Positions 48,899 through 56,321 of a stretch of DNA of 64,000 nt are shown here, piece by piece. The notes under the pieces were generated by a model that saw only the letters and a list, made by a program, of their open reading frames with translations, did not search any database and was not told the DNA's origin. The DNA is taken from positions 310,001-374,000 of the forward strand of contig JAIXMQ010000024.1 in the NCBI GenBank assembly GCA_025716855.1, in the 5' to 3' direction. A program made the position numbers and the translations under genes. How positions within the stretch are numbered: position 1 is the first letter of the stretch; each line of letters begins with the position of its first letter. This DNA is from Pilaira anomala (taxonomy: Eukaryota > Mucoromycota > Mucoromycetes > Mucorales > Mucoraceae).

Positions 48899-50209
48899 TT
48901 AATTGTCATAAAATGGACCGAGATGGAACATCCCTGTCTTGTCCTCGCCTTCGGTCAACTTCAACATTGTGCAGGTAACAGTGGTGGATAAATTCGTCTT
49001 TGGTAAAGACGAAAATAAACACTCACTGACTACCTTTGCACTTTCTTCCTTTAATTTTTTGATAGTTTCTACTGTTTCCTCTATCAATTTCTGCAATCAT
49101 AAATATATATTTTTTAGTGTTCTTATTTTTTCTTGGTCTGAAATGGAATATCTCTAAAAAAGATATTTACCTTCATCGTCCAGTAGAACTTAATTACAGC
49201 TGGTAATTGTTCGTCTTTTTCCTTGAAGGAAGAAATCTTGATTTCAAGACTTTCTTCAAGCCAGAGTTCATACAAGGGCCCCTCTGGGATGTACTTCATC
49301 GACCAGAGGCGAACAGTCCTTCCTATTTAACATTTTATGTTTGAAGTTGAATTAGAGCACTATAAATTAATAACATAATATTTTCATACCTGCAGCATGG
49401 GTAAAAAATACTTTAACATCTTTAAATGTTTGTATTGACCCATATTCGTAGTTATCTGCTATGGCTTTTAGCATAGATAAAGCCCCAAAAAGTCCTTTGT
49501 GATGATCAAAGGAAATTTTGGAACTATCTTTATTTCCGAAATATCCGGAAGTTTCTAAAAGTAAGACCTCCAAGTTTTTATAATCATAGAGACTAATAGT
49601 TGCATCCGCTTTATAAATAGCAGATTCATCATTAATCTCGGTCATAATAGTCTTACGAGCCATAGAAATTAACTCGGTTTCACCTACTTTAAACTGTGGC
49701 TCGCCGATCGTTGCAGATGTGCACACAGCTTTCAAGTAGGGATAGAGCAATACATCATTAAAAGGTTGTTTCTCCATCTTCCAAGTTCTGCTTGTATTGG
49801 TACAAGTAATAACTGTTTGTAATAAGCGAACCTTTAATCAGTTTTATTTTCTGAATAATAAGAAAAATAATATTTACCTTGCCCGGCAAACGTCCTCCAA
49901 GAACCCAACGAAATCTTCTTCACCATCAGGAAGCTTCCTGATGTTTTTCTTAAAATTAGTGATAGTGTCCTAAACAATTATTTTAAAAGTAGTAAGTATA
50001 AAAAGTTAATGCTATAGAACTTATATGAAAAAAATGAAAAATGTACTCTTACACTATTCAAGAATGATCGGATGTATTCCATCGCAGTGGATGGAATATG
50101 AAAAGCATTGTCCGTGTGACTTTCCAGAAGTTGACTGTACAAGTCATTATCGAGATTAGGTCTCCAAGAAACCCCTTTTCCTCCCCGAATTACATCGTGG
50201 TTTTCCGGA
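48899..50209 (-). pseudogene. Repeated multi-exon gene, copy 1 (frameshifted, 5'-truncated)
   Basis: Minus-strand exons 50209-50053, 49969-49878, 49812-49390, 49322-49171 and 49090-48899 have consensus splice sites and read as one protein: NLDNDLYSQLLES, NFKKNIRKLPDGEEDFVGFL, YLYQYKQNLEDGETTF, LYPYLKAVCTSATIGEPQF, VRLWSMKYIPEGPLYELWL, then a helical tail. The 423-nt exon has one base too many: copy 2 at 62.5 kb has a T run one base shorter at the same place (about 49757-49760) and keeps the frame. No start exon is visible upstream of 50209. Family unknown; it resembles multi-copy proteins I recall from Mucorales. The extra base could also be a sequencing error. Confidence 0.6.
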
Positions 50210-50339
50210 CTGTGTAATGAAAAAGTCGATGTTAAATTTCAGTAATCAAATTGATTTTTACGAGGAAAACTTGGCGCACGACAACAATTCACACGATGTT
50301 TTCAAATGTAACTATTTTTTTTTTTTGTATGTTTCAGTT

Positions 50340-51400
50340 AGCAGTTTTGCCTGGTAAGATCAAGAACCTTGATCCTTTTCTTTTTCCGATCGTTGAAGAG
50401 ATCGAGTTTGGGTGAACATGGTTTCGGCATAAAGAAGTACGATGGCGAAGCAATAAAAGCAAAGGTGCACTTGGTAATGGCGACAGATGATATTCTGCAA
50501 GTAAAAAAAAGGTCACAAAATTCAGCCATCACAAAGGTCATATGACTAAATCTGGATGCAGAATATGCCTTATACAAGGACAAGGTGCAGGACCTGGAAG
50601 AGGTAGCATGTACTTTCAATCATGAACTGCAGCTTTACAATCATTAGTGAGTATTTTTTTTTTTAAAAAAAAAAGCTTTTGAAACTGGGGTCACAGCTAA
50701 TGATTTAAAATAGATTAATCAATTAATGAAGCCTAATATATTTACAAAGCTACCTACGTTTTTGTCTCCTTCCTTCCATGTTTTAGATGAGCTTCATGGT
50801 TTTGGACAAGGCGTGTCTAGATTTGTTCATGGAATGATTGTAAAAGTAAACCAGAATACAAAGCTTACGAATATGCACAGCAAAAATGCGGATGGAACTT
50901 TTAAACTTATGCATTGAATTATCCAGAAGTAAAATACCAGTATCCTTTCAAAGAAGTTGGGGTAACTTGATTGCAAAAGTTGATGGAGCACAAGCTATTG
51001 ATCTCTTGGATTTCCTATTGTACGTGGTACCAACTCTCATAGTGTCATTGTTTAGTAAAACTGCAACACGCAAAGCTTTATTATGCTAGGTACGAGGTTG
51101 TACTATTGCGCTGCAATGGGAAACCAATGAGAATTTGATTAGAGAGATCGAAAAGCAAGATCATTTTATAATCATTAATTAAATATACTTACCACTTGTT
51201 ACAGTTGTTTTGCTAATTGGCATTATTTTCTTGAAGAAGAAATAAAAAAGAAGAACATATCTGTCAGCGTTTTTAAGCCAAATATTCATTACTTGATACA
51301 TATTGGATATATCATAAGAAAAGCTGGCAGAATGCGTTCATATAGTGCCCGATCAATGGAAAGAACAATTGGCAGATATTCGAAGAGGAAAGAGGAAGTT
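50340..51400 (+). pseudogene. Decayed CACTA/Tnp2-type transposase
   Basis: Plus-strand blocks in shifting frames keep family order: LPGKIKNLDPFLFPIVEEIE (about 50340), HGFGIKKYDGEAIKAKVHL, GHMTKSGCRICL (about 50538-50573), DELHGFGQGVSRFVHG (50786-50835), DLLDFLLYVVPTLIVSLFSK (about 51000-51060), RGCTIALQW, then HYLIHIGYIIRKAGRMRSYS and ARSMERTIGRYSK (about 51285-51382). The GH..GCR.C block resembles the Tnp2 zinc motif. Many stops and frameshifts make it dead. It shares the VDW/LDFL..VP and RSMER blocks with the remnant in the 35.1-38.5 kb element. Confidence 0.55.
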
Positions 51401-51970
51401 CAATGAAATCGTCCAGCGATGTCTTTTTTGGTTTTACAATATCAAGAAGATCAGTTATATTTACAGCCAAGCTGAAGTAGGAACGCATAGAGAGACACTC
51501 AGCCAAATTACCAGCATTCTTTCCAGCTGCAACTCTACTTTTGATCAACTCCTTTCAATCAAAATCATCAATTATGTAATTCTTTTGCTACTTATACATT
51601 ATTATCAACCGACTTAATTGAATTCATTTCACCTATTACTATTATCCAACAGCTTAAAAAATATTACAGTAAGTTAATTTGTTGATCATTTATCTTTAAT
51701 ATTTGTGCTTACCTTCTTTTGAATATAGAACCTATCGCTGGTACGTCGGTTGTGTCTTGTTTTATTTTCAGCATAAAAATTATTACCGCGAACAATAAAT
51801 TCCAAAACAGGCTGTTCATTTGAGTGTAAAAACGCGTAATGCGTTTCATAATATACAAGTTGTTGAAGTGGTGAAGTAGATTCGTGACATAACGAAAAAG
51901 AAAAATTACACGCCTTTTTTTTTTAAAAAAAAAAAATAAAAAAAAAAATAAGGACAAGTATTTCATCTAT
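51401..51970 (-). pseudogene. Inverted and minus-strand coding-like fragments near the Tnp2 remnant
   Basis: On the minus strand, 51548-51400 reads IKSRVAAGKNAGNLAECLSM then RSYFSLAVNITDLLDIVKP, which looks like the expected continuation of the RSMERTIGRYSK block that ends on the plus strand at about 51380. A second minus-strand stretch at about 51880-51710 reads LQQLVYYETHYAFLHSNEQ, VLEFIVRGNNFYAEN. Both suggest local rearrangement of the dead transposon. No complete gene. Confidence 0.4.
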
Positions 51971-52029
51971 CAAGACAAAAATACTACTTTACGTGACTAT
52001 TCAGAAACAGGTTTTTTAATAATGAGCTA

Positions 52030-52240
52030 CAGGGTTTCCCACTATTTTTGGGAATTAAAATTGAAATTAATGGGAAAAAATTTAAAAGTTATTAAAACCA
52101 AATTTGAAAGTTGATGGAATAAATTTTGAAGATTAATTAGATAAAGTTTGAAAAAGTTAGTTAGTAATGTAATTCTTACATAGACGTTTTAAGGCTTTAC
52201 CTGTATCAAGGTTTTCCAAAGCGATAACTTAGGAGGATAA
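52030..52240 (-). ncRNA. Candidate omega-RNA region at the Fanzor 3' end
   Basis: This stretch runs from the base after the Fanzor stop codon to the end of the element on the coding strand. It is almost identical in the inverted copy at 54903-55113 although it has no open frame. In described Fanzor and TnpB systems the guide RNA scaffold comes from this 3' position and its guide is the sequence just past the element end. So the guide would come from the flank below 52030. Position and conservation are seen; RNA function is inference. Confidence 0.5.
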
Positions 52241-54441
52241 TTATTGTTGAAGACGAGGTTTTTTTTCCCCCAGTTTGATTGGGTCATAGTTTTTTCTCTT
52301 GATTGAGTCTTTTTGACTTCTCAAGAATATCGCAGGTTTCTGGGATGTAGTCCTTAAGCTAATTACGATCTTCCTAAAATTTAATACAGCAGCAAGATCC
52401 CTGTTCCATAGTCGATACTTTATATTCTCTTGATCCTTTTCAGTTAATGCCTGTTTCTCCAAACAGTTTTGATTTAAGCATCTAAACACAAGTTATTTAA
52501 ACCTTTCATTGATATAAAATATGTAAGAAATACCTTAAAAGACCATGGCATGTTACTTTTGGATTAGTCGAACGTCGGTATGGCCTTGGATTAATACATT
52601 CTTTAAAAGTTGCTAGCTTGTTTTCACAAGAAGGACAGATACTAGAAGTTTTGAACTCATCCAAAAGATAAACTTTAAACCCTTCTTTTCGTAAGCTATT
52701 TCTTAATCCGTTTCCTTTAATGGGTTCGTGAAACCTTGTGCGGGAAGCAGACCAATTTCCCAAAATTAAGATACAATCCTTTCCAAACTTTTTTCTGATG
52801 TTTTTTGATAAACGTTTGGTTGATTGAATTTTATTGATATGCGCACTGAGCTTCATCTTTCTAAAAGGGATTAAGTCTTTCTCTCTCTTATCCTTCTCTA
52901 CATCTTCATTTGAATAGTATTCTTGCATCTTACAATTAACTTCAGCTCTAATCTTTAAGTATTCAACAAATGCTTCCTTCTTTACTGTGAGTGGCGAACA
53001 CTTGCTGAGTTTGTCCTCGCAATCTTGAATGTCTTTTGGTTTCAACTGTTGCCGCAGCTTTTTAAATTTTGTTGATTTTGTTTCCTTTGCTTTTTGATTT
53101 CTCGTGTACCTGTAAATTTTTTTATTATTGACTGTGCTATCTTCGTGCATACAATAAATTAGATCACGTCGACCAGGATCAATGAATACACATTTTCCAT
53201 CTGTAGATCGTAGTTCCTCGTTGGGGATTTGTTCAATATATTTGAGTTCTTCATCTTCCACTAAACTGGCCTTGGGATTACTTGTACCACCTTTAGACGT
53301 GTCGAAATTTTGTTTTATAACAGAAATACCTATGCCATCTGTCATTATAGTTCCTCTGAACTTCATGGAGCTATCTAGGCCTTGATCTTTGAAAGGTTTT
53401 GAAGATAAATTTAGGACTTTTCCCCAGATATACCCTTTATCCAATTTGCTTCTTTGGGAATTTTTTAATATATGATTGTTTAATATCATAGTATCAATAG
53501 TCATATATGACGGAATAAAAGTCTTTCTTACAGGAAAGCATTGGAATAATTTGAAATTGTTAGCCTCGCATATCTCTGCTAGTTTAAAATAAGCAAGCAA
53601 GTGTTTTCCTGGATTTGCAATAGCATCATAATAAATGGAATCTTTTTTAAACTTGTAAGTTTCAGGATAAGCAGAAAATATGTCCTTAATACAGTTGATA
53701 ATAGCCTTTTGATCTTGGAATTCTTTTGGGATTCGGCTGATATCTCTTGATGAAATAGCCAGTTTAAGTTGTGTAGCAGGTTCCAGAATGTTACTTTTAA
53801 TTTTGGCTTTAGTTTCCTCTTTTGAGTAGCCTTGCTTTTTCAAATCGCTAGTCAATTGTGAGATACGTTGTTTTAGTCCAATCAGTTTATTGACAACCAT
53901 TCTCAGCTTATTTCCAAAATCTTTAGTGATTGCATTAGTACAAGCAGTTTGTATTTTCGTAGCTTCATATGAGGCTATTTGTTGAGCAGAGGGTAGTTTG
54001 ATTGGCGTGAATGATGAATCTCTACAATACGATGCTTTATACTTGTTTATCATCTCTCTATAAGCCTTTACTTTGCCCGATAGTCTATTAACATTCACAG
54101 TTTTACTGTCTAAAAGTGATAAAAACACTTCCTTGTAGAAACCTTGGACTGCATACTCTTCTAAATTAGGATTAAGCTCTTGGATGAATATGTATCTTGT
54201 AAAGGAATACGTATGGGTGACAATAATATGAACGTCATGAACGAGTTTCTTCAAAATAGAAAGATATTGAGGTTTCCATCCTATTCCAGTAATTGAAGAC
54301 TTTACAGTCATAACCTTTTTACCATTACCATCAGTGTTTATTGATAATGTATTCACCTGTAAAAATAAATGTGAGCAAAATAATACATTTAAACCCGTTA
54401 AAAATACTTACAGGGGTATATTGTTCAACGGATCCCTCCAT
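52241..54441 (-). CDS. Fanzor: eukaryotic TnpB-like RNA-guided nuclease, 697 aa
   Basis: Minus-strand exons 54441-54412, 54356-52534 and 52481-52241 close in phase to 697 residues. Intron 1 splits a 10-codon start exon (MEGSVEQYTP); intron 2 lies between zinc-binding cysteines. Seen: FRGTIMTDGIGISVI (middle of the protein), FIDPGRRDLI with RuvC-I Asp403, LLDEFKTSSICPSC with Glu577 and Cys584/587, CHGLLRCLNQNC with Cys619/624, and WNRDLAAVLNF with RuvC-III Asp646. This is the order of TnpB/Fanzor nucleases, with the relocated RuvC-II glutamate in the DE(F/Y)xTS motif. All catalytic and zinc residues are present and the frame is open, so it may be active. Nuclear, guided by its own 3' RNA, by family knowledge. 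Confidence 0.93.
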
Positions 54442-54667
54442 TTTTACTTAAGGGAGAAATTGTTAAAAAAGAGAAAAGAACAAAGAAAAAAAAAAAAGAA
54501 AGAAAGGGTTTTGATAGCATTTATCAAACTGGTTATTGGTTTTTGGGACTGGTAAAAAAGAACTTCTTTGTATTTTATAACGTAAGCAATTACACTAATT
54601 AACCATTGAATGATGATGCATTTCGTATCTCATTTTTGAATACCATACTTTTTCAATTATTTTATAA

Positions 54668-54902
54668 AAATAAGAGAAAGAAGGACTTGATCCCCTTTAG
54701 AAAGATGAATCTCAGTGCCCATATCAATGAAATTCAATCAACCAAACGTTTATCAAAAAACATCAGAAAAAAATTTGGAAAGGATTGTATCTTAATTTTG
54801 GGAAACTGGTCTGAAACCTGCGATATTCTTGAGAAGTCAAAAAAAAAAACTCAATCAAAAGAAAAAACTATGACCCGATTAAACTGGGGAAAAAAACAAT
54901 AA
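54668..54902 (+). pseudogene. Inverted, internally deleted second copy of the Fanzor 3' part
   Basis: The plus-strand frame reads KDLIPFRKMNLSAHINEIQS, then KKFGKDCILILGNWS, nearly identical to residues about 503-546 of the intact Fanzor. It then jumps to text matching the last about 30 codons in another frame. The deletion removes about 410 bp, including the zinc finger, Glu577 and Asp646. The downstream sequence continues into the second copy of the element end. It cannot encode a nuclease, but it keeps the entire conserved 3' non-coding end. Confidence 0.85.
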
Positions 54903-55113
54903 TTATCCTCCTTAGTTATCGCTTTGGAAAACCTTGATACAGGTAAAGCCTTAAAACGTCTATGTAAGAATTACATTACTAACTAACTTTTTCAAACTTT
55001 ATCTAATTAATCTTCAAAATTTATTCCATCAACTTTCAAATTTGGTTTTAATAACTTTTAAATTTTTTCCCATTAATTTCCATATTAATTCCCAAAAATA
55101 GTGGGAAACCCTG

Positions 55114-56321
55114 TATGTAAGAATATCATGGCTATTTCTGGATAAAAACATATATATCTCATTTTTATAGTCCTCAACAATGATTTCAATATGTATTTTA
55201 AAAGAAAAAAGCGTTCTTTTTTTTTTTCTCTATTCTCTTTGAATATCTAAAAGTTAAACGTTATAATTTGATTGGTCGTAGAAAAAAAAGAGGGCCATAT
55301 TCACCAATTTGAGGGAAAAAATAAGAATATATGAGATATTTGATTTGGATTTGAATTGATCCAAAGAAGTTCCTTTTGGATCTGGAAAGTTTACTTTGAG
55401 CATACTTTCAGTTATCGTGTACTCTTTTAAGGGGCCCGAAACGTGGAAGTCGATGAATATTGTCAAACAATGCCAGCGAAAAAAAGCCATTTTAACCTTA
55501 ATAGACCAGTTTATACGCATCGAAAAGAAAAAAAAAATCTCAAATCAGACTAGGAAGGCTGAAGATTATTCACAATCAAATTATCCTTATGCCAAAATAA
55601 TCCTACAGCATAATGATAGAGGTTGCCGAGAAAGTTTCCCGGGGAAGGAAAGTTACTATTGACGGAGTTTTCTTGAGAAGACATCAGGACGGCTTGTATT
55701 CTTTCTACCTATTTTAACATGGAAATGATACCCTTATACTGAACATTATTTTCATATCCCAAAGTAACTTTAAAGATTGTATATAGGATAGATAATACAC
55801 CCGTTTCTTTTTTCCTTCGCTGCTTGACTAAAGGGTAAATGCTATATGTATTTATACAATTAATTATTTCAGAAATAAAAAAGCTCCAAAGTATTTCATT
55901 TGGTTCAAACAACTTTCAAATCAAATCCTGAAAATAGTGGGAAATCCAGTATGTATTTAATTGGCACTTTTTTTTTGCCTTTGTTTGTTTATTGTCCTAA
56001 TATGAGAGCATACTTATATTTTACTTGTTGAAGTAAATCGTTGCTCTTTATCATATAGAAGTTTGTCATAAACTTTGTTACAAATATAATAATTTTTTTG
56101 AGGAAAGATACACGCACCATATTTTTAGATAACTTTATTTCAGGTTTCTATGTTTTACTATCCAATGTTATTTGTAATCGTAAGAAAGCCAAAACATAAG
56201 TGCATGTTTTTTTGAAATATTAGTTAACAAGTTATATGGTATAAAAAAAAAGTAAAATGAAATGTATTTATTTATGAAATTGGTTAAATATCTACTAACA
56301 ATGATATACATTCAAATAAAC
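55114..56321. other. Intergenic region with a related mariner-type end
   Basis: About 55910-55953 (reverse complement starting ACTGGATTTCCCACTATTTT) resembles the ends of the Fanzor element and is bordered by TA, so it is a diverged relative or a second, outer end. Weak coding-like frames at 55254-55520 (minus) and 55396-55662 (plus) are not recognised. The rest is AT-rich. Confidence 0.4.

Follow-up and report, generated by a model that had tools for sequence, protein, structure and literature searches.

A multi-copy Fanzor1 element with Tc1/mariner-type ends in Pilaira anomala, and a one-sided flank motif that suggests a role for its nuclease

Described Fanzor1 elements and the Pilaira locus

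Fanzor-only mariner elements are already known (PMC3627910). PUl-4, PUl-1 and PGv-1 (Bao & Jurka 2013, PMC3627910) have Fanzor1 within TA-flanked mariner elements, and those of the PUl-4 type hold Fanzor only, between terminal inverted repeats (TIRs) that resemble those of true Mariner members. Here we describe an element of the fungus Pilaira anomala, at positions 52030-55113 of a stretch of 64,000 nucleotides (nt) that was analysed as a whole and is called the window (contig JAIXMQ010000024.1, positions 310,001 to 374,000, forward strand). It is flanked by TA and carries a three-exon Fanzor1 gene on the minus strand. It is a real multi-copy Fanzor1 element, known in kind, with near-identical unbroken copies and an unusual end structure; its fungal host, an inverted duplication of its 3' end, the near-identical unbroken copies and the selection and flank statistics given below set it apart from PUl-4, PUl-1 and PGv-1.

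The Spu-1 elements of Spizellomyces punctatus (PMC10432273) are similar in being Fanzor-only, with inverted ends, partial or "ghost" copies and a conserved CA upstream of the 5' inverted repeat; CATA is the target-adjacent motif (TAM) of their nuclease SpuFz1, and that paper reports that no transposase was found between their repeats. In Pilaira, by contrast, ends and remnants point to a candidate family of partner transposases, two Fanzor lineages have unlike motifs, and the 3' end recurs in inverted form as the 5' end. The Fanzor1 element of SfAV (Yoon et al. 2023, PMC10711439) is likewise non-autonomous; it is viral and of another transposon type, and its RNA was measured, whereas ours is predicted. 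The SfAV scaffold is predicted to include the TIR and the target-site duplication (TSD), with reads reaching ~15 nt past the TSD, and the same paper predicts that the TSD belongs to the scaffold in Fanzor1 guide RNAs (PMC10711439). SpuFz1 and PpFz1, the Fanzor1 of Parasitella parasitica, are reported as RNA-guided nucleases (PMC11423790; PMC10432273). Among the titles and abstract openings covered in the literature, few of them from subscription papers, there was no report of this Pilaira element, of an inverted 3'-end duplication or of Fanzor flank motifs that differ between lineages of one genome.

Saito et al. (2023) described the role of Fanzors in their transposons as unknown. We consider it probable that the Pilaira element was mobilised in trans and that its nuclease, with the 3' flank as guide, helped it to be retained or to home at sites bearing the motif. 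With two multi-copy Fanzor lineages whose genes are open, a candidate partner transposase for each and different one-sided flank motifs, all in a single fungal genome, the idea that the nuclease helps its transposon to persist can be put to a direct test, either in yeast or in a saprotrophic fungus.

The Fanzor gene, its copies and selection

A preliminary description, made from the letters alone, had proposed an intact three-exon Fanzor of 697 residues with three RuvC acidic residues and a four-cysteine zinc site. This gene was reproduced, with the following parts.

54412-54441, minus strand: Fanzor exon 1 (ATG, 10 codons)
54357-54411, minus strand: intron 1 (55 nt, GTAAGT..ACAG)
52534-54356, minus strand: Fanzor exon 2 (RuvC-I D403, RuvC-II E577, CPSC)
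52482-52533, minus strand: intron 2 (52 nt, GTATTT..TTAG)
52241-52481, minus strand: Fanzor exon 3 (RuvC-III D646, second cysteine pair, stop TAA)

The spliced product of 697 residues has D403 within IDPGRRD, E577 within LDEFKTS and D646 within NRDLAAVLN, with cysteine pairs in CPSC and in CHGLLRC/NQNC. Judged by eye, TSSICPSC, CHGLLRCLNQNC and WNRD fit the Fanzor1 motif D-X(125,275)-[TS][TS]-X-X-[C4 zinc finger]-X(5,50)-RD as defined in PMC3627910. The product is homologous to biochemically proven Fanzor1 proteins: in the PDB it matches PpFz1 (9cf0-9cf3, PMC11423790), the closest solved relative, at E 1.9e-178 over aligned stretches 12-496 and 504-673, the alignment continuing across the second splice junction, and SpuFz1 at E 5e-54. 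DPGRRD, DEF[KR]TSS, NRD.AAVLN and CHGLLRC are found in both PpFz1 and the window Fanzor. PpFz1 has about 100 extra residues, between query positions 496 and 504, that the window Fanzor lacks; from PMC11423790 we infer that they are the cyclophilin-binding RuvC insertion (FRI). In the comparison with profiles, suggested in the preliminary description, Pfam TNB (PF07282) stayed below its cut-off (16.5 vs 26.3 bits). Because the matches to proven Fanzor1 proteins are so strong, we do not count the TNB shortfall as defining.

Both intron positions also fit a second Fanzor lineage of the same genome, that of locus L079, whose spliced product of 690 residues is 55% identical to the window Fanzor. 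P0009, a public model of that lineage, stops at CHGLLR and is without exon 3.

Further copies with the same ends, which the preliminary description had thought worth looking for, do exist: there are 20 two-ended loci over 1 kb, the window included, and at least 40 places in the genome match the 211-nt 3' end taken alone. A frame-by-frame search found the 633-residue exon-2 frame whole at 100% identity in three copies, all of which give the same 697 residues. These three unbroken copies among the 20 are the window copy, its segmental duplicate L012 (C143:254191, on the contig that also holds the window) and one independent insertion; the other 17 are broken or shortened. Since L012 and the window copy have the same flanks and belong to one inverted segmental duplication, the unbroken copies represent two insertions.

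Differences from the window were sorted by the number of copies that have them, over 19 aligned copies. Those seen in one copy comprise 105 synonymous and 317 nonsynonymous changes (dN/dS-like ratio 0.78), those common to 2-4 copies 26 and 62 (0.61), and those common to at least five copies 20 and 13 (0.17; Fisher test against the singletons, 5e-5). Because the synonymous share is higher in the widely shared differences than in the singletons, the source lineage appears to have been under purifying selection while individual copies decayed. The earlier suggestion that the window copy could be active is plausible in the light of this selection and of the unbroken copies, and is tempered by a truncated public model of the protein (see below).

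One two-ended copy outside the 20, L033 (C170:103200-103648), is only 449 bp long; it spans element positions 1-434 with the last exon only, has CATA at the end opposite the 3' region, and can be likened to the ghost Spu-1 elements.

Element ends and candidate partner transposases

The 13-mer CAGGGTTTCCCAC forms both ends of the element (52030-52042, plus strand; 55101-55113, minus strand), and the ends are built as follows.

52028-52029: TSD TA, left, downstream of the gene
55114-55115: TSD TA, right, upstream of the gene
52030-52053, plus strand: TIR CAGGGTTTCCCACTATTTTTGGGA, gene 3' side
55090-55113, minus strand: TIR, gene 5' side
52028-52248, plus strand: outer left arm (gene 3' end), 99% complementary to 54895-55115
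54895-55115, plus strand: outer right arm, an inverted copy of 52028-52248
54670-54813, plus strand: inverted partial copy of exon 2 (52748-52891), 94%
54813-54896, plus strand: inverted partial copy of 52261-52340 (exon 3 end)

The complementarity of 221 nt at each end and the further inverted gene pieces in the right end had been missed in the preliminary description. Members of the window family have, as their 5' side, the Fanzor 3' end over again, inverted and with an internal deletion; some 830-864 nt of this inverted copy are kept in L011, L018 and L036, and most other copies, that of the window included, are without a stretch at about element positions 314-720. We read the inverted 5' arm as a re-made TIR. 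With up to one mismatch the 13-mer end occurs 84 times in 34.25 Mb, matches that take in other element families with CTGGG ends, against 9 for a reversed control pattern.

As in Tc1/mariner elements, the ends are inverted and TA stands on both sides, at all 19 independent two-ended sites over 1 kb. A DDE transposase is not encoded in the window element: no transposase-like frame was seen inside it in the six-frame list (frames of at least 50 residues, judged by eye), and no DDE_3 lies inside it among the matches listed. Judged from these features it is a non-autonomous Tc1/mariner derivative, and the account of a mariner-ended, TA-flanked element without a transposase stands.

The 24-nt TIR of the window element is identical at 21/24 positions to that of the L080 transposase family (CTGGATTTCCCACTGTTTTTGGGA), the best of 11 TIR strings compared (next, 19/24); these are a sample, as many of the 33 scanned loci gave no clean ends, and the strings of L049, L060 and L071 may not be true termini. 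The frames of L080 (450 residues, with a DDE_3 match) and L081 (451 residues) are open, and these two members are 99.75% identical to each other over 1,624 nt. The window element and L080 have about 72 nt in common at each end (71-74%), with no transposase remnant on the 5' side. Such remnants are found in sister Fanzor lineages. The L079 lineage (four matches, each spanning 31-627 of exon 2 with 56-57% identity) has a different TIR, whose pattern is matched by L111-type transposase elements with 2 mismatches in 31 bases; its 5' end holds a transposase C-terminus with 76% DNA identity to L111 over 224 nt and 70% identity over 50 aligned residues. In a third, decayed Fanzor lineage (L108, L109), 240-255 nt of the 5' end resemble the end of the L080 transposase element at 71-72% identity. 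Because of these remnants at the 5' ends of sister lineages, the Fanzor elements look like transposase elements in which the transposase has eroded. Movement in trans, proposed in the preliminary description, is supported by the open-frame Tc1/mariner copies with near-identical ends together with the remnants, and would be the probable mode.

Other candidates were rejected. Elements with CTGGGTTTCCCAC ends fit the window TIR less well than L080 does (15/24 positions for L030, 19/24 for L029), and a transposase inside a Fanzor copy was seen only in C72, where it lies in a nested, different element (listed DDE_3 matches, judged by eye).

The genome is rich in mariners, with at least 197 DDE_3 matches in 34 Mb, many in open frames. 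About 810 bases to the right of the Fanzor element, at window 55926-55949 (minus strand), there is a lone end of the CTGGATTTCCCAC kind (CTGGATTTCCCACTATTTTCAGGA, 2 mismatches), and a decayed frame beside it (55709-55915) resembles, by eye only, the reverse frame of a transposase C-terminus. Pairs of L080-type ends 6.1-6.2 kb apart occur at C113:75960-82209, C159:181226-187309 and C171:492661-498739 (L135) with recurrent flanks, the comparison of flanks covering all but that at C171:498739; the C159 segment between the ends has a frame with a DEAH helicase-like motif, by eye, and the arrangement looks like a repeated unit bracketed by mariners.

A one-sided flank motif and the mode of spread

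Read in gene orientation, CATA is found upstream of the element at 13/22 independent ends (L009, L010, L012/L013, L015-L018, L022, L023, L026, L028, L033, L037) and downstream at 3/27 (L020, L025, L035; Fisher test, 6e-4). The other upstream ends have AATA (4), TGTA (2), TTTA, GGTA and ACTA, so that A stands at -3 in 17 of the 22. As background, 4.5% of TA dinucleotides in the window follow CA (binomial test of the upstream ends against this share, 1e-12). When the 19 independent two-ended copies over 1 kb are taken by themselves, CATA is upstream in 11 and downstream in 2 (p 0.005; paired 11:2, p 0.022), and with L033 added it is upstream in 12/20 and downstream in 2/20 (p 0.002). In these counts L012 was merged with the window copy; L040, L043 and C18/L110 were dropped, having no TA at the end or being rearranged; the one-mismatch ends C13, C112, C177, C178:113892, C181:75608 and C219 stand outside them; and one-ended copies were given a side by alignment, with less certainty for L035, L036, L039 and L041. 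Transposase-only copies of the L080 family have CATA at 1/26 ends (p 5e-5 against 13/22), these being a subset of the known ends of which several share flanks, so that fewer are independent; the CTGGG families (L029-L032, L045) have it at 1/10 ends.

The TAM of PpFz1, ATN (PMC11423790), fits the upstream ends with A at -3; one sentence of that paper gives the SpuFz1 and GtFz1 motifs in swapped order. The CATA counts indirectly indicate a Fanzor1-type TAM at the 5' flank of the element. The following features are predicted.

55114-55117, minus strand: predicted TAM CATA just upstream of the element, including the TSD TA (flank statistics)
52028-52103, minus strand: predicted omegaRNA scaffold, 3' end of the element including the TSD (folding by itself not significant, z -0.9)
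52013-52027, minus strand: predicted guide, the flank just beyond TA (on the model of the guide RNAs of SpuFz1 and of the SfAV Fanzor)

The L079 lineage has a motif of its own, TATA, at 6/7 upstream and 0/5 downstream ends (p 0.015); 3/7 upstream and 1/5 downstream ends were assigned by TIR variant only, and the count omits five divergent-TIR ends whose side is unassignable (L127-L131; 2/5 have TATA).

The two ends of a copy may themselves differ: their first five bases are unlike in 10/20 two-ended copies over 1 kb. The gene-5' end is CAGAG in nine of these ten, with CAGGG at the 3' end in eight and CAGGA in L028. CAGAG is at the 3' side only in L025, and among the two-ended copies over 1 kb L025 shares downstream CATA with just one other; a flip of the gene between the long arms would explain L025. 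L020 (CATA downstream, CAGAG upstream) and the one-ended L044 (CAGAG at the assigned 3' side) do not fit the pattern, and L033 has CAGAG at both ends.

These results are good indirect evidence that the nuclease mattered to the spread of the element. RNA-guided retention or homing would be expected to leave such a one-sided motif, and the nuclease-aided route raised in the preliminary description thereby gains indirect support. In the mechanism that we favour, an element of non-autonomous Tc1/mariner type with Fanzor1 as its only gene would be moved in trans, by cut and paste, through a related DDE transposase encoded in this genome, from the CTGGATTTCCCACTGTTTTTGGGA TIR family. Fanzor would bind RNA from the 3' end of the element, running through the TIR and TA into the flank, and would cut CATA followed by that flank, which is the empty site on the sister chromatid or in another nucleus. 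Repair would then copy the element in, and copies at CATA sites would be kept or spread.

Several observations weigh against this mechanism. CATA is missing from 9/22 upstream ends, including C101, which was examined after the motif was noticed; moreover the motif was spotted in the flank data first and then matched to papers, with no prior prediction. The empty site of the window insertion was not found by a pattern search allowing up to 3 mismatches. At neither end do the last ~90 nt fold better than shuffled sequence, and the putative first stem of the 3'-end RNA varies among copies, so we make no structural claim for the RNA. The L079 case is weaker than the CATA case because the L111 transposase family itself has TATA at 4/11 TA-bearing ends (13 looked at), from which 6/7 does not differ significantly (p 0.066). 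This last result, with the unlike ends of half the two-ended copies and the TATA-like targets that Tc1/mariner transposases often favour, would suit a Fanzor that is merely a passenger, CATA and TATA being target preferences of the transposase, orientation being fixed by slightly different ends and the nuclease playing no part. We regard this as unlikely, given the scarcity of CATA at L080-family and CTGGG-family ends, the identity of the motif with the measured TAM of a homologue and the purifying selection on the protein; furthermore, nine independent copies have CAGGG at both ends, and CATA is upstream in seven of them (not L011, L014) and downstream in none.

P0001, the public model of the window protein (623 residues, 100% identical over its match, ending ...NPKMLKSKLFGETGIN), also speaks against an intact nuclease: it appears to join the usual acceptor to an intron-2 donor farther upstream, stops after 13 more residues, and lacks D646 as well as exon 3. 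On this showing the window copy might be dead, or spliced in a way that costs its protein D646 and half of the zinc site, the copies being relics that only others move, and the many broken or shortened copies would agree. However, P0002 and P0003, public models of other Pilaira copies, splice intron 2 as here, to CHGLLRC..NRDLAAVLN; the intron position fits the L079 lineage too; exon 3 aligns with PpFz1 and SpuFz1 and is open in three copies with an identical protein. A dead or mis-spliced Fanzor is therefore very unlikely. The long arms raise the alternative of an element with guides at both ends, where omegaRNA would run outward from either arm, Fanzor would target both flanks and homing could use either end. 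The near-complete complementarity of the arms, the lower divergence of the outer arms of the window copy (3/221 sites) than of the inner ones (9/144; p 0.015) and L025, in which end type and CATA side are both swapped, would be in keeping with this. Downstream CATA is nevertheless near background (3/27 ends, with 1.2 expected; p 0.12), the likeness of the outer arms over 20 copies ranges from 83 to 100% (some alignments short and gappy), not clearly better than that of the inner ones at about 91-97%, and gene conversion or transposase binding could keep arms alike; guides at both ends are thus unlikely. A related and similarly doubtful proposal would be a near-palindrome with a guide-RNA end on each side, where the TAM side follows end identity and not gene direction, and where the two lineages read CATA and TATA, each on its own transposase family.

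The inverted segmental duplication that holds the Fanzor element covers window 49732-55643 and C143:253.6-259.6 kb (L012, L133, L134), its left limit lying beyond the compared stretch. Between the duplicates the element differs at 3/3083 sites and the left flank at 18/2295, eight of these in one 250-base stretch; the near left flank (50201-52029) differs at 9/1828 sites (about p 0.013). The lower divergence inside the duplicated element would fit gene conversion or homing, with a flank rate that is uneven.

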